Shown: one piece after another, positions 1-9,199 of the stretch | Layout of the letters: every line of letters starts with the position of its first letter | Position numbering within the stretch: the first letter of the stretch is position 1 | Notes under the pieces: model-generated | The model's input: the letters and a program-made list of their open reading frames with translations, nothing else | Database searches by the model: none | What the model was told of the DNA's origin: nothing | NCBI GenBank assembly: GCA_001803565.1 | Contig: MHDQ01000045.1 | Span: forward strand, 1-9,199 | Length of the DNA stretch: 9,199 bases | DNA from: Nitrospinae bacterium RIFCSPLOWO2_12_FULL_45_22 | GTDB lineage: Bacteria > 2-12-FULL-45-22 | Direction: 5' to 3' | Translations under genes and position numbers: made by a program

Positions 1-76
1 GGGCCCTACGGATTCTAAAAAAGCTAGAAGCTGATTCTTTAGGGAATAGCCTGGTGGTAGCAAGGTCTAGCCAAGA
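1..76 (-). repeat. 76-bp perfect copy of an internal transposase segment (copy 1)
   Basis: Bases 1-76 match 8666-8741 in the same orientation without a mismatch; the match stops at 77 (a) against 8742 (g). It may continue left of the window. The segment is internal to the transposase coding region, not an IS terminus, so it is not a simple insertion boundary. The window starting exactly inside this repeat is also what a contig broken at a repeat would look like. Confidence 0.95.
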
Positions 77-316
77 AAATGCCCTGATCCCACCACCGGT
101 TCCCAAACTCGGCATAATGGCTACAGTGGTATCAGGATTCGATTTCGTGAATGCTCCTCCCAGGAGATGCATGGTGCCCAGTGAAGCGCCGGTTCCTCCT
201 AACTTAAAGGTCCCGCCGAAATCCGTTAGGGGCAGCACCATCCCAATTGATGCAATAGCTAAAAATATTGCCGTCAAAACTGTCTTTCTCTTGGGTCTGA
301 ATGGATATGGGGTCAT
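1..316 (-). CDS. PstS-like periplasmic substrate-binding protein, N-terminal part, fused in frame to a transposase fragment (3' partial)
   Basis: This frame is open to the left window edge, giving 105 complete codons. Residues 1-80 begin with a signal peptide: basic n-region RPKRK (8-12), then a hydrophobic stretch to about residue 31. A glycine-rich segment LGGTGASLGTMHLLGGAF follows, and then PSLGTGGGIRAF. This is the usual start of PstS/COG0226-type binding proteins, which carry a GTGS-like anion loop and a PSLGSSGGI-like motif, so phosphate or a similar oxyanion is the likely ligand; the exact ligand is inference. From residue 81 (SWLDLATTRLF) the protein is identical to an internal part of the transposase encoded at 8559-9199, and the junction lies at 76/77. 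The normal mature domain (usually well over 200 residues) is therefore missing and a functional binder is unlikely. ATG at 316 is the only plausible start, because a TGA lies in frame just upstream. No clear Shine-Dalgarno sequence precedes it. It follows the PKD-domain gene by 120 nt and may be read with it. Confidence 0.72.
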   Translation of the reverse strand, partial: MTPYPFRPKRKTVLTAIFLAIASIGMVLPLTDFGGTFKLGGTGASLGTMHLLGGAFTKSNPDTTVAIMPSLGTGGGIRAFSWLDLATTRLFPKESASSFFRIRRA

Positions 317-436
317 GTGGATATGAGGTCAGGTCTTGAAATATAAGTTTGCAGTTGAAATGCTGGCTTTTAATAGTGATGTTGGTAAAGTATACGATGA
401 TGTATTCCTCCTGGTAAAAGTCAGATCCTCCGTGCA

Positions 437-1591
437 TTAAGGTGTATAAGAGAAAAAAGAAAGACTGGAATTCCCTATTAGTTCAGGAGAACCTGCCTGG
501 ACAGAACCAGGCTTGGCAAGTGCACCAAAGGCTATATAATCCCCGGTAGGGATCTGGGGTAAAACGATTGTAAAAAAAAGATAACTATCCTTGATATCAT
601 CTCCATTAGAATCCACATTGGCCTCAGATGGACCGGGGAATGTATAGCTGGTGGGTAAAGTCACATTTGTAGCAAAAGAAGTAAATGTGCGTGCATCGGA
701 TATATTGCTGGACCGTAAATTCAAGGAAGAATCAAAGAAATATAGACTGCCGTCAGGCAATCCAATTCCTATAAAAGCATCTACGTTTCCCGGAGTGACT
801 GAATCCGGATGAATAACATTCAGATATAACTCTAAGGTGTCTCCCGTGCGATAGCTTTCCCCATTGGTAGATATAAGAAGGCGGGTGGTAGCAGCAGCGG
901 TAATAATACCATTATCAGGCCTACTATTGAACTTCTCATTACTTACAATCAGTTGAATAACATAAGTCCCATCTATGTCAGGAATAAAAGTCGGGGATGC
1001 TTCTGTCGAATTGGATAAGGCGGCATTGCTTCCTGCGGGTCTTGAAATAAATGACCAGTTGTAGGTTAATGCCTTCCCATCCGGATCCGTGCTCTGTGAT
1101 CCATCCAGGGTAATAGTATTTCCGCTAAAAACTACCTGGTCGTTACCCGCATTGGCTTCAGGGAGGTTAGGAAGCTGAGCCTCAATATTTATCTGCGCAG
1201 TGCTTCCTGATGTCCCGACAGTCATCTCACCATTTGCGGGAGAAGTAATGGTAAGTTCGTTTCCATCCAAAAAACCATGGATAATAGCGGTTTCACCTGG
1301 CTGGGCACCGCCGGGCTGGGCCGTGGATTCGTAAATCGGTATATCGATTATATACATATCAGAGCTACTCAGGCCATCCGTATCTTCCGCAGCGGGATCA
1401 TAAGCAGTGCCATCCTGCTTGGTTACTGTGAATGTATAACCCGTATCCGTTGCCTGGGTCAATTGTGTGCCATCTACTGTTACAGCCCCACCTACCCTTG
1501 CTGGAAAAATGGGAACCTGGGCCGATGCAATTGAAGATACCCAAACCAAGAAAAATAGAAATAAGGCAGTCGATAATAAACTTTTTTTCAT
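437..1591 (-). CDS. Secreted PKD-domain protein of unknown function
   Basis: A 384-residue protein with a clear Sec signal peptide (KK, then a hydrophobic core, cleavage probably at ASA|Q, residues 24/25). Residues 25-140 form a beta-rich region (GGAVTVDGTQL, GETAIIHGFLDGNEL) that could be a small Ig-like or invasion-type module. Residues about 144-220 are a typical PKD domain: EANAGNDQVV, LDGSQSTDPDG, LTYNWSF, and closing GTYVIQLIVSNE. Residues 245-380 form another beta-rich domain (YRTGDTLELYLNV, DAFIGIGLPDG, TGDYIAFGALAKPG) that I do not recognise by family name. No catalytic motif and no clear anchor are visible. PKD domains usually act as spacers or in protein or carbohydrate binding on the cell surface, so an adhesion or structural role is an inference. 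The start is supported by a strong ribosome binding site. The stop overlaps a downstream ATG (TAATG), but that ATG opens only a spurious frame. The gene is separated from the upstream STN-like gene by a hairpin-rich 282-nt gap and probably has its own promoter. Confidence 0.9.
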   Translation of the reverse strand: MKKSLLSTALFLFFLVWVSSIASAQVPIFPARVGGAVTVDGTQLTQATDTGYTFTVTKQDGTAYDPAAEDTDGLSSSDMYIIDIPIYESTAQPGGAQPGETAIIHGFLDGNELTITSPANGEMTVGTSGSTAQINIEAQLPNLPEANAGNDQVVFSGNTITLDGSQSTDPDGKALTYNWSFISRPAGSNAALSNSTEASPTFIPDIDGTYVIQLIVSNEKFNSRPDNGIITAAATTRLLISTNGESYRTGDTLELYLNVIHPDSVTPGNVDAFIGIGLPDGSLYFFDSSLNLRSSNISDARTFTSFATNVTLPTSYTFPGPSEANVDSNGDDIKDSYLFFTIVLPQIPTGDYIAFGALAKPGSVQAGSPELIGNSSLSFFSYTP

Positions 1592-1600
1592 CGTATAATA

Positions 1601-1607
1601 CCTCCTT
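1601..1607 (-). promoter_or_regulatory. Strong Shine-Dalgarno for the PKD-domain gene
   Basis: The minus strand reads AAGGAGG, nine nucleotides before the ATG at 1591. This fixes the start of the 384-residue PKD protein and suggests high translation. I could not identify a convincing -35/-10 pair upstream of it. Confidence 0.85.
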
Positions 1608-1657
1608 AATGGTTTAGACTTCTTAGATTAAATTTTCTGAAAATATATGAAGCTACT

Positions 1658-1674
1658 TATTAACAAGGTTAATA
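1658..1674. promoter_or_regulatory. Operator-like perfect dyad upstream of the PKD-domain gene
   Basis: TATTAAC-AAG-GTTAATA has two perfect 7-bp arms around a 3-nt centre and lies about 67 bp upstream of the ATG at 1591, in an AT-rich stretch where the promoter should be. The size and symmetry suit a dimeric repressor or activator. The regulator is unknown, and AT-rich dyads of this size can occur by chance. Confidence 0.35.
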
Positions 1675-1735
1675 TTCATCCAGAATCCAAGGCAAACCCT
1701 CATGGCCTTACGGCCACCACGAAGCATGAAAATAA

Positions 1736-1785
1736 GCGGGACAAGAATGTCCCGCCTATCGATAGGCGGGGTTTTCTAACCCCGC
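1736..1785. repeat. Nested hairpin cluster (REP-like), possible terminator of the STN-like gene
   Basis: Three overlapping perfect inverted repeats occur in 50 nt. The first is GCGGGAC (1736-1742) with GTCCCGC (1749-1755), loop AAGAAT. The second is the 20-nt perfect palindrome CCCGCCTATCGATAGGCGGG (1751-1770). The third is GCGGGG (1766-1771) with CCCCGC (1780-1785), loop of 8 nt. They share arms, so alternative folds compete. On the minus strand, the direction of the genes, the last stem is followed by TTATTTTC. Transcription ending here after the gene at 1874-2422 is therefore plausible, but the T tract is imperfect. The G/C-rich arms in an AT-rich gap look like a dispersed REP- or MITE-type element, which one window cannot prove. 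Confidence 0.7.
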
Positions 1786-1873
1786 AAAAAGAAATTTTGT
1801 TTTTATTTTCTAAGCAAAACGTAGGAGAACCCCACCCTCTCGTGCTCTCCTTTCCTGATCAGTAATCATTTAG

Positions 1874-2422
1874 CTATTTCTTCATTAAATGGAGCCCGGG
1901 AGGCATAGGAGGTGGCTCAAGTCCCCCTATTTTTTCGGGACTTCGCGGAGGTGGGACCGTTGTTGCCTGATTATTCAGGGCGATTTTCTTCCGGTCGACG
2001 GATTTATTCCCTTTTTTCTCCGCACTTGCAAATGGAGCAGGAGAGGATTGATCTTTGCTGTCGCCCGTATTTTTTTCCTCTCCAAGAATCCATATATGAA
2101 TAGAATCAAGCGCTTCATTCCTGTAATTCAATGCCATAACAAAACTTTCACCATCAAAAATATCCTTTAGGATTTGTTCAATAGGATAATCTTCGTAGGA
2201 TTTACTTAAACCCCTATTGCCTGTATCACCTTGAACGACGATTTCGATGCCCGTGGCCTTCATTATCTGGCCTAAGGCTTCAGATATAGAGCAATTCTTA
2301 AAGTCGAAAGAGCTTTTCTCAGCTTCCTGGGTGCTTGCGTAAAGGATACCATTACCTACGAAAGAAAAGTAAAAAATGAAAAACAAAACAAGGCAGTTAA
2401 AGATTTTTTTGGGTCTTCTCAT
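1874..2422 (-). CDS. Small exported STN-like-domain protein with proline-rich tail
   Basis: With the ATG at 2422 the protein has 182 residues. MRRPKK is followed by an aromatic-rich hydrophobic segment (about 7-28, cleavage near YAS/T) that acts as signal peptide or membrane anchor. Residues about 39-115 resemble the STN domain (secretin and TonB N-terminus) or the related short domains of secretin-associated proteins: FDFKNCSISEALGQIM, then TGIEIVVQGD, then a second half YEDYPIEQILKDIF and a closing strand IHIWILGE. The tail (about 118-182) is polar and disordered, with PPPRSP and EPPPMPPGL. Such domains usually bind protein partners in the periplasm or at the outer membrane; a role in export or assembly of its neighbours is inference. 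The frame is open further upstream to 2542, but that would overlap the preceding gene by 80 bp and hide the signal peptide. AGAGG lies 4 nt before the chosen ATG, and an ATG at 2437 is the main alternative. Only 40 nt separate it from the gene upstream, so the two are probably one operon. Confidence 0.75.
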   Translation of the reverse strand: MRRPKKIFNCLVLFFIFYFSFVGNGILYASTQEAEKSSFDFKNCSISEALGQIMKATGIEIVVQGDTGNRGLSKSYEDYPIEQILKDIFDGESFVMALNYRNEALDSIHIWILGEEKNTGDSKDQSSPAPFASAEKKGNKSVDRKKIALNNQATTVPPPRSPEKIGGLEPPPMPPGLHLMKK

Positions 2423-2462
2423 AAAACCTCTATTCATCAAGTCAAAGTGGTAATCATCTTCC

Positions 2463-3515
2463 TTATGGCATGAGACCGGTTGTAAAAGCCCAATCGTAAT
2501 TGGTTTCCAATATATTACCAGCAGTATCTTCAACACCAGCAATTATTCGTGCAGTATAGCTTGTATTGGGCTTCAATTGCTCTTCCGGGACAAAAGTGGC
2601 CCTCATGATATCGGCTATATAAGAAACTTCCCCTGACACAGGATTTATCCCTTTTTCCAACAATAAGAAGGATTTCTTATTAAGACTGCCTTCCTTGATA
2701 TGATTACCAAAAATAACAAATAAATATGGTTTCAGACTGACATTCGTATCCATATCATTTGGAAAGGTATTCAGAATCTTTAAAGGGCCACGAATGGCAA
2801 CATTAACCATAGATCTGGTTGTATTAAAGCCATCGGTGCAGACTATGGCTAATATTGCACTCAGAGCGGGTGAAAGGGTGGTTGTATCTAATCTCAGTTT
2901 GGGTTCTTTGAGCAGCCCTGTTACAGGTTCCCAGGTAAGGCCTTTATCCTTGCTATATTCAATGAGATAATGCAAGGTATCGCCATCAGCATCAGAGCCT
3001 GTCCACTCCAGGTTTATTTTCCCCTTTATGGTTACTCCCTCTTTAGGTTGCTTGATGGAAACAACAGGGGCATGGGGACTTCTGGTCACACTCCAAAGAG
3101 CCGTTGGGCCTTTTTTCATGACCACTTTTTGTGTACGGTCATCAAAAGGGATTTCAAAGGCGAATTGCCGGCTGTCGATCTGTCTTTCGGAACTATCCGC
3201 TTTAATAACGGTTAGTAATCCGGTTTTAAAGGCATACGATGCGAGTAGCGAACCCGTTGCATCCCGGATTTCTACCGTATAGGGACCGTAGTCTTCAGGT
3301 GCATCCAAACGTTCGTCTCCTCCGGTATACAGTGGAGATACACTGATATTATCTTTTTCATCGAAAAAACCCCGGATAACTATAAATTCTGCTTTATTCT
3401 TTTGAGTTAATCCCTTCATATTAGCAAATACTTCTTTGCAGAGAAGCCTATTGGACAGATGTATAACACAGCCTAAAACCATGAACAAAAAGAAAGGCGT
3501 AAGAATCCTCTTCAT
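2463..3515 (-). CDS. Exported Ig-like (Big_5) protein, paralogue of the middle of the large metalloprotease-like protein
   Basis: A 350-residue protein starting at the ATG at 3515 (weak AGAG seven nt upstream); a GTG at 3530 would add five residues. The N-terminus MKRILTPFFLFMVLGC has a hydrophobic core and fits a loose lipobox (MVLG-C16), so it may be a lipoprotein; an ordinary signal peptide ending near residue 31 is the alternative. Residues 44-348 align end to end with residues about 695-1002 of the 1498-residue protein encoded just upstream: FIVIRGFFD/FMVVQGYID, IDSRQFAFEIPFDD/IDSRMFAFTIPFDD, DGFNTTR in both, NTSYTARII/NTTYTARLI, NYDWAFTTG/NYQWTFTTG. Order: a beta domain (44-140), an Ig/FN3-like domain with GSDADGDT and EYSKDKG (150-245), and a C-terminal Big_5 (SbsA Ig-like) domain (247-348). 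It has no HExxH motif and hence no protease activity of that type. It could be a surface-anchored partner, receptor or decoy of the large protein; this is inferred from the shared module and adjacency. Confidence 0.85.
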   Translation of the reverse strand: MKRILTPFFLFMVLGCVIHLSNRLLCKEVFANMKGLTQKNKAEFIVIRGFFDEKDNISVSPLYTGGDERLDAPEDYGPYTVEIRDATGSLLASYAFKTGLLTVIKADSSERQIDSRQFAFEIPFDDRTQKVVMKKGPTALWSVTRSPHAPVVSIKQPKEGVTIKGKINLEWTGSDADGDTLHYLIEYSKDKGLTWEPVTGLLKEPKLRLDTTTLSPALSAILAIVCTDGFNTTRSMVNVAIRGPLKILNTFPNDMDTNVSLKPYLFVIFGNHIKEGSLNKKSFLLLEKGINPVSGEVSYIADIMRATFVPEEQLKPNTSYTARIIAGVEDTAGNILETNYDWAFTTGLMP

Positions 3516-3544
3516 TTTTTTTCTCTGCACAAGTTAAAGATCGA

Positions 3545-3611
3545 GTCAGGAAACCCGCTCCTACCGTTGGATAGTCTTGGGTCTCCTGACCCGGCGAAAC
3601 AAAGGAGACCC
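3545..3611. repeat. Three-arm competing inverted repeats
   Basis: GTCAGGAAACCC (3545-3556) pairs with GGGTCTCCTGAC (3579-3590) with one mismatch. The second arm can instead pair perfectly over 9 bp with AGGAGACCC (3603-3611). One central arm thus has two possible partners, as in attenuators or in degenerate dispersed repeats. The element lies in the leader of the gene starting at 3515. No T tract follows either stem on the minus strand, so it is not a clear terminator. Confidence 0.6.
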
Positions 3612-3623
3612 TTTATGTCTAAA

Positions 3624-3707
3624 TTGAGATTGCTTCGCTTCCCTCGCAATGACAAAATCAGTCTCTTAATGTCATTGCAAGAAGCATGAGCGACGAAGCA
3701 ATCTCAA
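3624..3707. repeat. Dispersed-type inverted repeat (TTGAGATTGCTTCG...CGAAGCAATCTCAA)
   Basis: The left arm (3624-3653) and right arm (3671-3707) share a perfect 14-nt outer part, TTGAGATTGCTTCG against CGAAGCAATCTCAA, and an inner part GCAATGAC against GTCATTGC. The right arm carries seven extra bases between them. The loop is 17 nt. Elements with the core GTCATTGC(G)A...GAAGCAATCTC are, from memory, a common intergenic repeat in many environmental bacterial genomes. Located 24 nt past the stop of the large gene, it could fold in the transcript and protect or end it. Confidence 0.75.
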
Positions 3708-3731
3708 AATGAAAATTCCTATATGTTCAAG

Positions 3732-6700
3732 CTATGGCAGTGTCCATGTGGTATCCATAATGGCATTGATCCAATATCCATAACCAGGTTCCATACTTGT
3801 TAAATCGCTTGATCCTGGGTTATTTGGGTCATATACCTTCCACTTACCATCGACGTAAGCCCAAACGGATAAATACCTTCCAGCAATCGAGGCTAGGGCA
3901 TCGCCCGGTGCTACAGAGCTCGTTGAATTTAACCCTACCAGGTTCCATCCTTTGACCAGATTAACAGACTGACTACTTATAGGAGACCCTTTAGTTGAAA
4001 AATTGGCCCCTTGCGCTAAGGCAACCCAGTAACCTTTACCAACCTCCATGGTTTGAAGGTCGCTGAATTCAGGGTTATTGGGATCATAGAATTTCCATGA
4101 CCCGTTAATATAGGTCCATACAGATTCATATTTCCCAGAGAGAGGGGCCAAAACCGTAGCAATATTTGTATCTGCAGGCTGGCTCGTTAAAGAAATTAAA
4201 TACCAACCGGCATTTGCAAACTTATAGCTTTTTAGGATATTAACCCGGAAGGTATCCAAAGCTCGATTACCATCTTGATCCTTAGCCTCCAATGTTATAT
4301 CCGTATAGCCACTAAATCCCGCATTGGGATATATATCGAGATTATGGCTGGCATCTATGTTAACACCGGCCGCAGAATTGCTGTCAATTAGAGCGCTATA
4401 AGTAAGGTCTGCAACAGCAATGGTGATATGGGATGCATAATTTTCCAGATTCAGTACATCATCATTGACTGAATCGCTCGCTACAGCAATATCCGGGATG
4501 TTAGATAGCCTTATGACTGAGTAAAAGTCATCTGCCTTATAGGGGTAGGTCTGGTGAACCGTTGCAAAGGAGTGATAGATACTGGAGTTTGATGTGCTAT
4601 AGATGTATATATTGGCTACCTCAAAAGGCCCATCAATACCATGGCTGGCAATATCAGATCCATTAAATTCCAGATCGATAAAATAGACGCCGGCTTGATA
4701 AAAGCTAGCAGTCTCGGAGGCCCATGCTATATCTTCTTTATTCTTGTCTCTCAATTGTGCATTCAGATTATAGGTACCAGTCGTTATAACTTCTACCTGT
4801 ATCCTTATTACCAGCTTGTCGTATAGGCCGTCGCTATCGGTATCTGCAGCCTGGTCGTAGCTGACCCCTACTACTCGAATTCCACTGGATTGACTGGATC
4901 CCGTGGTGAAGCTCCAGGTGTAATTAGATTCCAGGGCAAGCCCTTGGGAGTCAGCGATGGCAGTTGTTAGGGTGGCCGTATAAGTAGTATCAGCAGTAAG
5001 ATTGTTAGTTGGGGTGAATAAGGCACTTTTTGTCGTACTGTTGTAACTTACGGCCCCATTAACTGCATTATTGTTCTGGTCTACCACTTTAAACGAACTT
5101 GAATCGACTGTGCTACTGTCAATGCCATTTTCAAAAGTAGCCTGAATCAGCGCATTAATCGGGACATCTGCTGTTCCATTGGCTGGTGAGACATTTATGA
5201 CCTGAGGGTTATGAGACGTGGTACCGGTAGTAAAAGTCCATTGATAGTTAGATTCCAACGTATTGCCACTGGTGTCATAAACACCACCTGATATGAGTCG
5301 TGCAGTATATGTGGTATTGGACTTTAAACTATTGGTGGGAATAAAGGAGGCCCTTAGGGTATTACTCTCATAAACAACATTACCGGCGACCTGGGATCCG
5401 CTTTCTAACAAAATAAAAGTGTTGGTATTGATGGTCTTTTCATCCATGCCGCTGATAAAATAAGCAGCTATGGTCTGCCCTTCGCTGACCCCTATGGCAC
5501 CACCGAGTGGTGTTGTCGCCTTAACTTTAGCATAATTATCAATCGCTATATTGATCTCTTTTCGGGTCGTGTTAAAGCCATCATAGGCGATAAGTGCGAG
5601 CTTTTGGTTCGAACCTGTTGGCAATAATCGGGTATCCAAACTGTAAGTGGTAATGTTGACTATTTGATTTGAAACAGGAATCCAGATGGTGCCATCCGGG
5701 CTGTATTCCAGCCGGTAGTAAACTGTACCACCGTCATCAGATCCGCTCCAGGTTATATTAACAGTTCCACTAATAGTAGTTCCCTCGGTGGGATTGGTGA
5801 AGTTGGCTGTGGGAGACGCAGAACCAAAACTCGACTTGTTTATGGTAATGGTATTGGTCGGACCTGTGATCACTAGACTCTGGGCGGTATCATCGAAGGG
5901 GATAGTGAATGCAAACATCCGGCTATCAATGGTTGCAATGGTATCATTGGTTCTGTGGATAGTTAGATCATCTGTGTCGAAATCATAAGCGCCCAAAGAA
6001 GACCCGCTCCCATTCGCTCCCGAGAATAGTTCAGCAGTATAGCCAGTGCCACTGGGCGCCGGAACATGTCTCTGGGTTACATTATAAAGGGGCGAGACTG
6101 TTTCTACCTTACCAGTTGCATCAATATAACCCTGAACCACCATGAAATCCCCGGTGAGAGATTGAATATCTATCACCGATGCGGCGGCAAGTTGTCCCAT
6201 GAGATGCCGGTAATTATCTGGCCTTATCCAGCGTAAATTGGTATCTACTCCCCATTTATTCATTAAGGGTACAACCGGCGTTTGATAAGCACTCCCCTGG
6301 CAGTCCTGGTGATTTACCTTGTCTCTTTCCGTGTTCCCCTCTTCATAAGACTTGTTTTGCATAGAATAAACATTAAAACCTTCAATGACATTACCATCAT
6401 TATTATGCTTATCCGTGCATCCCGCGCCGGTATTAGCAGCTATGCCGTGCTCATGGCCTATCTCATGGGCAACCGTGCCCGCATTAAAATTGCTCTCGGA
6501 GAGCAATAATACATGGTTCGACCTCAACCCATTGGCACCGGGAATGCCATCGCTAGGGACCAAACCAACGATAAATCTATGGGTGGCAGGTTTCAGGGTT
6601 GCCAGCTGGTTCATAACAACCCTTATTTCTTCCAACTCAGCCCCCCCGGGAGGGCTTTTTACGAAGCGGACATTTTCATCCACACTATTCCCCGCAACAT

Positions 6701-8228
6701 TATCATCATCCCACCAGGCCGAGCGTTTCGTTGTGGTATACTGCATATTGAAACCCGTAGCATCTTTTTTTATTGTCCCTTTATCGTCGTAGGAACAGCC
6801 AACAATCGGGAATACTGCCCAAGTGAAATCACACCCTCTGTTCAATTCACCCTGGGCGGAGGTCAACTGTGCGGCATTGACCCCGTTATACCAGCCAGCC
6901 ATTTCGCAGGCCCAGGCATTGAATTTAAGGCTCGGGGTTTTATTCTTCACGTTAGCTGTTGCGTTTTTTTCGAATACTTTTGGTGTACCAGTTTGTGGCC
7001 TGGGTTCGATTTTTAAATTGTAATTTTCTTGGTTACTGGTGGTTCCAATGTGATTAAAGTTTGTGGTATTCTGGGCGCTTTTCTTTTCATTGGCCGAGTA
7101 TTTGTCAGGACGCTTAATAGTAATATTATTCTTGGTTTGAGTGGTTCCGTTCGCATCAAGGGTCACATTGGCATTAAACTCCGTCACTTCATCGGCATCA
7201 AATACATCATCTTTTGCGTCCCAGAGGGCATAGATTCGGTTAACGACTGTTTTTATTGGTATCAGATCTTCATTACGGCTCACATTGAACCAGGTGATTT
7301 GCATCTTATCCTTGGTAGTATTTGGCTTGTACAGGTTCGCTGTTTGGCCATCCAGATTGACCATGGTCCAGAAATACCAGGTTACAGAGGCTTCCAGTTT
7401 ACCATCATCTTTATTCAGCACGCCAGTCGTGCCGGCAAGTACTCGCATTCTATAACGAATGCCATCTTTAAGAGAAGAATTAGGACTGACTCGGGCCTTT
7501 TTTGCTGAAATCATTGTTATGGTGGTATCTACCTCCACCCAATTGCCGGACTGGTCCCGATATTCAAGCTTGATGGTATCACTGTTTGCTGTAGATGCTT
7601 TAACTTCCTCGCTAAATTCAATAGTAATATTGGGACTATCCCATTTAACATTCTTTTCATCAGCCTTCGGCGTATAATCGGTTACTTGAAATCCGACCTT
7701 TCCAGATATCTCAACATACCCTATTCCCACACACCAGCAATTTGTGCCAGGGGCATCCGTATCGATGTAAATATGATTGCTCCCTTTTATCAAATAACTG
7801 GAGAGAATATTGAAAATATTGGTGCTCCATGAATTATTTGCGCCTTGAAGTTGACCAACAAGATTATTATTCACATAGAGGTAATCTACCTCTGGCCCTC
7901 CGGTACAGCCCTGAGGGTCATTGTAATCTACATCATAGCTAGTCAATTTGATCTTTGCATCTTTGATTTTATCCGGCCCCGTCTCAATATTTAAATAGAT
8001 ATTATGGTCCGAGTAGCTACACCCAGAGTTCACATCCACATGCCATACACTCTCTCCAGTAGAATGAGTTCCAATAGAGAGCTCGGGCGTTTTGGAAAAT
8101 GGTGGCGGTTCAACGTGGTCTATGGCATCATAGGCAAAGGCTTTTCCCCATATGCTTAAACATAAGAAAATGGCTGAGGAAACAATGATTAATCTGCTGC
8201 TAAATCCTATTTTTTGTTTATAAGACAT
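3732..8228 (-). CDS. Large secreted multidomain protein with HExxH metalloprotease motif and Big_5 Ig-like domains
   Basis: 1498 residues. Signal peptide 1-32 (cleavage AFA|Y). Residues 50-175 form a cysteine-containing beta-sandwich (IKLTSYDVDYND, YLYVNNNLVGQL, NHIYIDTDAPGTNCWC), resembling carbohydrate-binding or galactose-binding folds. Residues 178-290 are a first Big_5-like domain. Residues about 430-690 form the putative catalytic region, with HEIGHEHG at 588-595 (H588, E589, H592) and a possible Met-turn PLMN (M656). The metzincin third ligand expected at 598 is Ala; H608 or E616 could replace it, so activity and clan are uncertain. Residues 695-1002 are the module shared with the neighbour at 2463-3515, ending in Big_5 number 2 (about 905-1002). 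Big_5 number 3 spans 1006-1110. Residues 1115-1215 include a calcium-loop-like DTDSDGLYD, 1225-1330 are cadherin/Ig-like, and 1341-1498 contain two copies of a W/Y-rich repeat. Together these indicate a secreted or surface enzyme acting on protein or glycoprotein; the substrate is unknown. The start is supported by a ribosome binding site 9 nt upstream, and the frame is uninterrupted. Confidence 0.9.
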   Translation of the reverse strand: MSYKQKIGFSSRLIIVSSAIFLCLSIWGKAFAYDAIDHVEPPPFSKTPELSIGTHSTGESVWHVDVNSGCSYSDHNIYLNIETGPDKIKDAKIKLTSYDVDYNDPQGCTGGPEVDYLYVNNNLVGQLQGANNSWSTNIFNILSSYLIKGSNHIYIDTDAPGTNCWCVGIGYVEISGKVGFQVTDYTPKADEKNVKWDSPNITIEFSEEVKASTANSDTIKLEYRDQSGNWVEVDTTITMISAKKARVSPNSSLKDGIRYRMRVLAGTTGVLNKDDGKLEASVTWYFWTMVNLDGQTANLYKPNTTKDKMQITWFNVSRNEDLIPIKTVVNRIYALWDAKDDVFDADEVTEFNANVTLDANGTTQTKNNITIKRPDKYSANEKKSAQNTTNFNHIGTTSNQENYNLKIEPRPQTGTPKVFEKNATANVKNKTPSLKFNAWACEMAGWYNGVNAAQLTSAQGELNRGCDFTWAVFPIVGCSYDDKGTIKKDATGFNMQYTTTKRSAWWDDDNVAGNSVDENVRFVKSPPGGAELEEIRVVMNQLATLKPATHRFIVGLVPSDGIPGANGLRSNHVLLLSESNFNAGTVAHEIGHEHGIAANTGAGCTDKHNNDGNVIEGFNVYSMQNKSYEEGNTERDKVNHQDCQGSAYQTPVVPLMNKWGVDTNLRWIRPDNYRHLMGQLAAASVIDIQSLTGDFMVVQGYIDATGKVETVSPLYNVTQRHVPAPSGTGYTAELFSGANGSGSSLGAYDFDTDDLTIHRTNDTIATIDSRMFAFTIPFDDTAQSLVITGPTNTITINKSSFGSASPTANFTNPTEGTTISGTVNITWSGSDDGGTVYYRLEYSPDGTIWIPVSNQIVNITTYSLDTRLLPTGSNQKLALIAYDGFNTTRKEINIAIDNYAKVKATTPLGGAIGVSEGQTIAAYFISGMDEKTINTNTFILLESGSQVAGNVVYESNTLRASFIPTNSLKSNTTYTARLISGGVYDTSGNTLESNYQWTFTTGTTSHNPQVINVSPANGTADVPINALIQATFENGIDSSTVDSSSFKVVDQNNNAVNGAVSYNSTTKSALFTPTNNLTADTTYTATLTTAIADSQGLALESNYTWSFTTGSSQSSGIRVVGVSYDQAADTDSDGLYDKLVIRIQVEVITTGTYNLNAQLRDKNKEDIAWASETASFYQAGVYFIDLEFNGSDIASHGIDGPFEVANIYIYSTSNSSIYHSFATVHQTYPYKADDFYSVIRLSNIPDIAVASDSVNDDVLNLENYASHITIAVADLTYSALIDSNSAAGVNIDASHNLDIYPNAGFSGYTDITLEAKDQDGNRALDTFRVNILKSYKFANAGWYLISLTSQPADTNIATVLAPLSGKYESVWTYINGSWKFYDPNNPEFSDLQTMEVGKGYWVALAQGANFSTKGSPISSQSVNLVKGWNLVGLNSTSSVAPGDALASIAGRYLSVWAYVDGKWKVYDPNNPGSSDLTSMEPGYGYWINAIMDTTWTLP
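3735..4208 (-). repeat. Two-copy C-terminal protein repeat (GW..Y.NG.WK.YDPNNP..SDL..ME.G.GYW)
   Basis: Within the large protein, residues about 1341-1412 and 1427-1498 repeat with a period near 86. Shared anchors are GWYLISL/GWNLVGL, GKYESVWTYINGSWKFYDPNNP/GRYLSVWAYVDGKWKVYDPNNP, SDLQTMEVGKGYW/SDLTSMEPGYGYW. From memory, similar W/Y-rich ends occur on other large secreted proteins of environmental Gram-negative bacteria. Cell-surface attachment or an export signal is a possible role but is not shown by the sequence. Confidence 0.85.
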
Positions 8229-8237
8229 CTTATCTGT

Positions 8238-8244
8238 CTCCTTT
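8238..8244 (-). promoter_or_regulatory. Shine-Dalgarno of the large multidomain gene
   Basis: The minus strand reads AAAGGAG, nine nucleotides before the ATG at 8228, which confirms that start and its signal peptide. Confidence 0.85.
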
Positions 8245-8350
8245 CTCGGTATGTATATTCATTCTCTTTTGCTTATAATCGAACATGTCTCTGGTTCATG
8301 CCTTTATATTTATCCCGCTGATAAGAAATTGCTTTTTTAGTTTAGGAAAG

Positions 8351-8379
8351 ATTTTACACAGCGATAAGGGAAATTGCAA
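8351..8379 (-). promoter_or_regulatory. Candidate sigma70-type promoter of the large gene
   Basis: On the minus strand TTGCAA (8379-8374) is separated by 17 nt from TAAAAT (8356-8351), close to the TTGACA-N17-TATAAT consensus. It would start transcripts near 8344, leaving a leader of about 115 nt before the ATG at 8228. The surrounding DNA is AT-rich, so a chance match is possible. Confidence 0.45.
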
Positions 8380-8422
8380 ACTTTTTTCTAACTTTGACTC
8401 GAAATTTCTATTTATAGTTAAC

Positions 8423-8465
8423 GCTAATTAAAAATGGGCCGCTTATGCTAACGAAAAATGACCGC
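8423..8465. repeat. Two-copy tandem repeat, period 24 nt, near the IS
   Basis: GCTAATTAAAAATGGGCCGC (8423-8442), spacer TTAT, then GCTAACGAAAAATGACCGC (8447-8465). The copies differ by three substitutions and a 1-nt indel. Spaced short repeats like this occur at the ends of some insertion sequences, notably the multiple terminal repeats of the IS21 family, and as regulator sites. The site lies upstream of the candidate promoter, about 45-70 bp beyond its -35. Confidence 0.6.
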
Positions 8466-8558
8466 TCTTTTTTACAATGAAAAAACAAAAGAATCACTAC
8501 TATACTTTCGCAGAAAATATCAAATAACCCCTTTTGGGTAAATTGTTAAAGATCACTC

Positions 8559-9199
8559 TCATGCTGCAATTCGGAACAGTGGTTCATAAAAGGAATCTAT
8601 TTTTTGTAATTCCGCATCTGGAGCTGAATTTGCTAAAATAATTTTCTTTAGGGCCATAATTTTTAGGGCCCTACGGATTCTAAAAAAGCTAGAAGCTGAT
8701 TCTTTAGGGAATAGCCTGGTGGTAGCAAGGTCTAGCCAAGAGTTATTTGTCTCTTCAAAGAAAGTGAGTTTCCATAGACAAAAGGATACCATTGATAGAT
8801 GAATAAATCTCAAAATAGCTATAGAAGAATAACACTGATAATCACCCCAGCCGAAATGTTGCGTCAAATCCCTTATGGCCAATTCGATGGAGAAGCGAGA
8901 GGCATATATCTCAATAATTTGCCCTGGGGTAAGGCTCAAATCGGTAGAGAGCAAAATGATCGGTTCGCTTGCTCCTTTAACTACCACAATGCGGACTTTC
9001 TCTTTAATATCCCGGATAAACATATCCCGAGCCACCACCGCCACCTGCTTTATCTCCCCATAGATATTCACTTCTATCCGTTCGGGTACCCTATGGGTGT
9101 TAAATCTCCGGATAAGGTCAGCCAGTTTCCATTTCTTCCCTACTTTTCTGGGCCTACCTCTTCCCTTAGAAGCCTGCGGCTCATCCCAACCCACCGCAT
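8559..9199 (-). CDS. DDE (RNase H-fold) IS transposase, C-terminal part (5' partial)
   Basis: 212 residues up to the window edge; the frame stays open beyond 9199, so the start and the first catalytic Asp lie outside. What remains shows a basic linker (GRGRPRKVGKKWK), a beta strand closing on STD (Asp codon 8940-8942), and the helix YASRFSIELAIRDL. That helix has the Y-xx-R-xxx-E spacing of IS4/IS701-like transposases (catalytic Glu codon 8883-8885). A hydrophobic C-terminal helical region follows. The Lys that ends the IS4 YREK signature is not in the expected place, so I assign only the broad DDE superfamily. The reaction is cut-and-paste movement of its own IS. The segment at 8666-8741 recurs perfectly at 1-76. 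The TGA stop at 8559 is clean and the remaining frame is intact, so the copy may be functional if its missing 5' part is whole. Confidence 0.85.
   Translation of the reverse strand, partial: AVGWDEPQASKGRGRPRKVGKKWKLADLIRRFNTHRVPERIEVNIYGEIKQVAVVARDMFIRDIKEKVRIVVVKGASEPIILLSTDLSLTPGQIIEIYASRFSIELAIRDLTQHFGWGDYQCYSSIAILRFIHLSMVSFCLWKLTFFEETNNSWLDLATTRLFPKESASSFFRIRRALKIMALKKIILANSAPDAELQKIDSFYEPLFRIAA
8559..9199 (-). mobile_element. Part of an IS4/IS701-like insertion sequence
   Basis: The extent given is only the transposase coding part visible here. Terminal inverted repeats and target duplications were looked for downstream of the stop (8558 to about 8400) and not recognised; the other end is outside the window. 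Confidence 0.6.
8666..8741 (-). repeat. 76-bp perfect repeat, parent copy inside the transposase gene (copy 2)
   Basis: Identical to bases 1-76. Here it lies in its natural context, encoding the stretch from SWLDLATT to FRIRRA in the C-terminal helical part of the transposase. Confidence 0.95.

Follow-up and report, generated by a model that had tools for sequence, protein, structure and literature searches.

What becomes of a protease's ancillary domains when a second copy of them is encoded without the protease? The question is raised by a window of 9,199 nucleotides (the whole stretch of DNA analysed here: contig MHDQ01000045.1 of assembly GCA_001803565.1, positions 1 to 9,199) from Nitrospinae bacterium RIFCSPLOWO2_12_FULL_45_22, in which the gene of a short protein, P0001, stands next to that of a large candidate metallopeptidase, P0002 (Table 1). 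Residues 24–352 of P0001 align with residues 675–1002 of P0002 at 39% identity (BLASTP, E-value 3e-64), and the match is colinear over three domains, a β-sandwich (34% identity), an fn3-like domain (42%) and a Big_5 domain (43%). A second, weaker match pairs the Big_5 domain of P0001 with the next Big_5 copy of P0002 (E-value 1e-11). Judged from these alignments, the likeness is far above chance and the paralogy is solid, which bears out the original prediction that the two proteins share a module with its order kept. P0001 has no HExxH motif, its homology to P0002 starts downstream of the catalytic region, and no remnant of the protease part is seen upstream of it. In the source assembly (3.67 Mb, 85% complete), these two genes are the only ones that encode the module.

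Table 1. Features of the window, with positions counted from its first nucleotide
Feature	Residues	Window positions	Strand	Basis and remarks
P0001, tail-only paralogue		2463..3530	-	Intact ORF; 355 aa from GTG, 350 aa from an internal ATG at 3515; export segment, then β-sandwich (44–150), fn3-like domain (151–248), Big_5 (249–353)
Export segment at the N-terminus of P0001, MKRILTPFFLFMVLGC..., with possible lipobox VLGC		3450..3515	-	Hydrophobicity and pattern check
Intergenic gap between P0001 and P0002		3531..3731	.	201 nt; holds the palindromic repeat
Palindromic repeat, CATTGCGAGNNNAGCGAAGCAATCTC		3626..3651	-	
P0002, secreted HExxH metallopeptidase candidate		3732..8228	-	Intact ORF, 1498 aa; signal peptide, N-terminal region, Big_5 (about 180–290), catalytic region with HEIGH (588–592), ancillary module (690–1002), further Big_5 (1006–1110) and further C-terminal domains
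Three-domain ancillary module of P0002	690–1003	5220..6161	-	BLASTP, HMM survey
Putative zinc site of P0002, HEIGHEHGIAANTGAGCTDKH	588–608	6405..6467	-	Alignment with orthologues; role inferred
Tandem domains at the C-terminus of P0002	about 1335–1498	3732..4226		
Small exported STN-like protein		1874..2422	-	
PKD protein		437..1591	-	384 aa
Partial IS701-family transposase		8559..9197	-	C-terminal portion, truncated at the edge of the window
Identical 76-nt stretches		1..76 and 8666..8741		Second within the IS701-like transposase fragment

The Big_5 domain (PF13205) is the sole part of the module above its Pfam cut-off (23.6 bits), with one match in P0001 (66.1 bits) and three in P0002 (145.7 bits over the three stretches). 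The AlphaFold model of P0001, made from a 10-row alignment, has a mean pLDDT of 81 and consists of three β-domains that are confident from residue 42. Structure comparison of this model places its Big_5 domain close to CopC and to the Ig domains of L,D-transpeptidases (Z-scores of 10–13), backs the fn3-like assignment of the middle domain and barely covers the N-terminal sandwich. The Foldseek matches of P0001 are generic Ig and fn3 folds, and sequence searches of the PDB with P0001 and with P0002 returned nothing useful. P0001 keeps 36 of the 41 columns conserved among protease tails (88%, against 80–100% in the tails themselves), and the changes in the five lost columns are mostly conservative, so both the fold and the conserved motifs of the tail are kept.

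HExxH is the signature of zinc peptidases, although the signature by itself does not prove activity. In P0002, H608, which lies 20 residues past the first histidine of HEIGH, is conserved in two full-length orthologues (HEIGHEFG...ASH and HEIGHEYG...DRH) and is a candidate third zinc ligand; catalysis, as predicted from the sequence, is likely. The orthologues, found by a scan with the catalytic region and the module of P0002, belong to the Thermodesulfobacteriota MAG PL23b_bin.63 (L132, 52.7% identity over 1497 aa) and to Candidatus Magnetobacterium casense MYR-1 (L133, 48.8% over 1474 aa). More distant, colinear homologues occur in a genome of another phylum (G202) and as two proteins encoded on alphaproteobacterial plasmids (NZ_CP011453.2 and NZ_CP121117.1, about 21–23% identity to P0002), and the latter share with P0002 an N-terminal Big_5 domain, a HEFGH region and the aligned tail. 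The plasmid-borne HEFGH metallopeptidase candidates of alphaproteobacteria (L024 and L025) are annotated merely as Ig-like domain proteins. Metzincins (MEROPS MA(M)) carry HExxHxxGxxH, and P0002 reads HEIGHEHGIAA, with no histidine at position 11; the model of its catalytic part has a pLDDT below 50, too poor for use on the question of a metzincin fold or Met-turn, and its relatives match Reprolysin models only below the cut-off. Asp-zincins have an aspartate at position 11 (HExxHxxGxxD; PMC3890501), where P0002 has an alanine and its relatives L134, L135, L137 and L139 do have the aspartate. The StcE-like Peptidase_M66 model (PF10462) gives no Pfam match to P0002 at an E-value of 0.1, and matches two of its relatives below the cut-off. 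At its C-terminus P0002 carries two tandem domains of ~70 residues (WYLISL/WNLVGL...YDPNNP), relatives of which occur in other genomes.

How the module is normally used was surveyed with HMM queries, built from the β-sandwich and fn3-like part or from the whole module, in four samples of ~1,200 genomes together: 386 relatives, 301 genomes of the phylum of G202, 245 of that of Ca. Magnetobacterium and 297 of that of the Thermodesulfobacteriota MAG, with a few genomes common to more than one sample. Around the stronger matches to the full module, the neighbouring sequence was retrieved and all of its ORFs were searched. In 51 of the 56 ORFs that contain most of the module, the same chain has an HExxH motif 66–146 residues (median 86) upstream of it, the shortest of these ORFs being 566 aa long. 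P0002 fits this tailed HExxH metallopeptidase family, a grouping defined in this analysis, and P0001 lacks its catalytic region. The named members come from MAGs or genomes of Chlorobiota, Bacteroidota, Acidobacteria, Thermodesulfobacteriota and Nitrospirota, and from two archaeal MAGs; in L132, L133, L134–L139, G202 and other loci, the HExxH region is followed, as in P0002, by the β-sandwich, the fn3-like domain and often Big_5. Because HExxH precedes the module so regularly, the module is, as far as sequence can tell, the ancillary tail that ordinarily accompanies the protease in a widespread family of secreted HExxH metallopeptidases, and the full-length form, protease plus tail, is most likely ancestral. 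This agrees with the original prediction in that P0001, which has no HExxH, would have shed the protease part. An earlier scan of genome contigs with motifs common to P0001 and P0002 and a scan of viral contigs each found no relative.

The five module ORFs without HExxH are P0001, G255, G1182, L126 and L103, among which P0001 is the sole clear tail-only gene. The 349 aa frame of G255 runs off a contig edge and starts in an apparent protease end, and the 874 aa ORF of G1182 belongs to a protease broken up by frameshifts, the HEFGH of which lies in the neighbouring frame. The whole P0002 homologue in G1182 (L185, 4458–9008) extends over three frames, with HEFGH in the middle one, owing to frameshifts or assembly errors. 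L126 is a large module protein in which QELAH replaces HExxH; L103 (4228–9423) encodes a 1732 aa module protein with no recognisable HExxH motif and is possibly an inactive relative of the peptidase family.

The divergence of P0001 appears to be old. A tree of 47 rows puts P0001 outside the clade formed by P0002, L133 and L132 (support 99/86), although a sister relationship of P0001 and P0002 is not rejected (AU test, p = 0.186) and the letter make-up of P0001 deviates from that of the alignment, which calls for caution. An 11-row tree of closer relatives, built on the whole module, also places P0001 outside the orthologue clade (100/98), and here the sister relationship is rejected (p = 0.008). 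The branch of P0001 (1.05 and 1.27) is comparable in magnitude to the paths that lead from the same node to the protease tails. Since P0001 branches outside the orthologue clade of P0002, a recent tandem duplication is unlikely on this phylogeny, even with the milder verdict of the larger tree; the original prediction had put the pair down to a tandem duplication. We read the divergence instead as one that probably predates the spread of P0002 orthologues among phyla, a spread in which transfer between phyla is likely.

P0001 was also expected to have a signal or lipobox of its own. The N-terminal hydrophobic export segment is indeed present; the lipobox is plausible and uncertain, as Cys16 fits the loose PROSITE-type rule and not the stricter [LVI][ASTVI][GAS]C. 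The gap between the two genes holds a palindromic repeat of which the genome has 11 copies (with up to 2 mismatches; none for a reversed control). Promoter-like sites are not above their frequency in shuffled sequence. Genes separated by such a gap of 201 nt can still be co-expressed. On the other side, the gene of an STN-domain protein starts about 40 nt past the stop codon of P0001, so that co-transcription of P0001 with this gene is at least as plausible as with that of the protease. This neighbour, a small exported STN-like (secretin/TonB N-terminal) protein, matches Pfam below the cut-off and has a single copy in the genome. Further along lies the PKD protein, which over its N-terminal 139 residues shares 43% identity with the start of an FG-GAP protein of Ca. 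Magnetobacterium casense. The gene of the latter (L133, 10903–12258, + strand) directly follows the P0002 orthologue, i.e. it is the PKD/FG-GAP neighbour and not a tail-only gene that recurs beside the protease in that organism. The pair of identical 76-nt stretches may be a de Bruijn assembly overlap or a truncated second IS copy. PADLOC found no defence match.

The original prediction suggested that P0001 is a dedicated partner of the protease. On such a reading it would dock to, anchor, chaperone or inhibit P0002 through the shared module, for instance by module–module pairing. The two genes lie side by side in the same orientation, the module is encoded nowhere else in the genome, and adjacent partners and possible protease-less modulators have precedents in CpaB beside CpaA (PMC7542363) and in the ADAMTSL proteins (PMC4448532). 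However, a whole-genome search with P0001 of the two genomes that encode L132 and L133 returned only the orthologues themselves (a tail-only copy in 0 of 2), and no tail-only gene beyond that of the window was found in the ~1,200 sampled genomes, in any retrieved neighbourhood or in the two plasmid records NZ_CP011453.2 and NZ_CP121117.1. The second of the two genomes of the source phylum in the collection (68% complete) has no match; the pair may be conserved as a lineage-specific one within that phylum. Co-occurrence thus shows no conservation of the gene pair in the collections searched, the outcome that the prediction itself had named as counting against it, and lends no support to a two-protein system made for the purpose. 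The 201-nt separation with its dispersed repeat also speaks against a partner, an old split suits a recent purpose-made duplicate poorly, and the literature presents CpaB as a membrane-bound chaperone rather than as a duplicate of the Ig-like part of its protease. Overall, a dedicated partner is unlikely. Somewhat less probable again is a decoy or competitor, which would occupy the surface ligand sites of the protease and shield them from cleavage: binding of the same ligand is conceivable with 88% of the conserved tail columns kept, but the β-sandwich is the domain in which P0001 is least identical to P0002, and nothing ties the expression of P0001 to the protease.

Two further explanations deny P0001 a function or an identity of its own. 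It could be the decaying, functionless remnant of a second full protease gene, as its homology starts just past the catalytic domain, which is what loss of the 5′ part would produce, and the gene is not conserved in the orthologue genomes or the samples searched. Against this, some 350 codons are intact at about 39% identity to P0002 with conserved columns kept, a start and an export segment are present with no trace of a protease upstream, and the branch length is in the range of the protease tails; decay is accordingly a rather improbable account. The protease of G1182, split over three frames, shows that a protease gene broken into several frames does occur among the relatives. Here a sequencing or assembly split of a single gene has next to no probability, because P0002 retains its own full module and P0001, only 39% identical to it, is an extra copy and not a split piece.

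The explanation that we favour, and hold tentatively at somewhat below even odds, is that P0001, a paralogue that parted long ago from a P0002-like metallopeptidase and has no protease part, is exported, keeps the binding role of the tail and acts independently. In the protein, a hydrophobic segment at the N-terminus is followed by the ancillary tail that forms the C-terminal region of the family's proteases. Its hydrophobicity and lipobox pattern suggest export and probable retention at the cell surface, perhaps as a lipoprotein, and its domain types suggest that it keeps the binding role of the tail toward the envelope, an extracellular polymer or a substrate surface. There it would bind, or serve as a spacer, on its own, and may share ligand sites with the protease, or compete for them, with no need to be an obligate subunit of it. 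Among the roles that the sequence suggests, the best supported is that of an exported binding protein, perhaps anchored by a lipid, with the ligand preference of the tail.

Known systems resemble parts of this arrangement. CpaA of Acinetobacter and StcE of E. coli are secreted zinc metallopeptidases with catalytic and Ig-like domains, and CpaA has an adjacent gene for a dedicated partner, the membrane-bound chaperone CpaB (PMC7542363). P0002 is predicted to be of the same general type. However, the catalytic domain of CpaA is C-terminal to its Ig-like domains and the module of P0002 follows the catalytic region, P0002 has no Pfam M66 match, and CpaB is not described as an Ig-like copy, which P0001 is. 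In animals, ADAMTSL proteins resemble the ancillary domains of ADAMTS proteases, have no catalytic domain of their own and are possible modulators of those proteases (PMC4448532). The likeness to P0001 is one of layout only, with no homology claimed: the ADAMTSL proteins are a conserved family of seven built on thrombospondin repeats and P0001 is a single bacterial gene. That the window encodes a bacterial counterpart of ADAMTS/ADAMTSL, in which a surface-anchored P0001 would position or restrain P0002 through a shared ligand or module pairing, is rather improbable.

A two-component system would matter more, if true, but the evidence points away from it, and the widespread, poorly described protease tail is more interesting than the gene pair. 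Across many phyla of bacteria and archaea, this recurrent tail is common to secreted metallopeptidases that are still uncharacterised, and Pfam covers just its Big_5 domain above the cut-off. In the surveyed loci, such as L132, L133, L134–L139 and G202, tailed proteases were found without any tail-only paralogue, unlike in the window, which is one natural case of a metallopeptidase tail kept alone. If P0001 binds the ligand of the protease, it would offer a convenient means of finding out what such tails bind.
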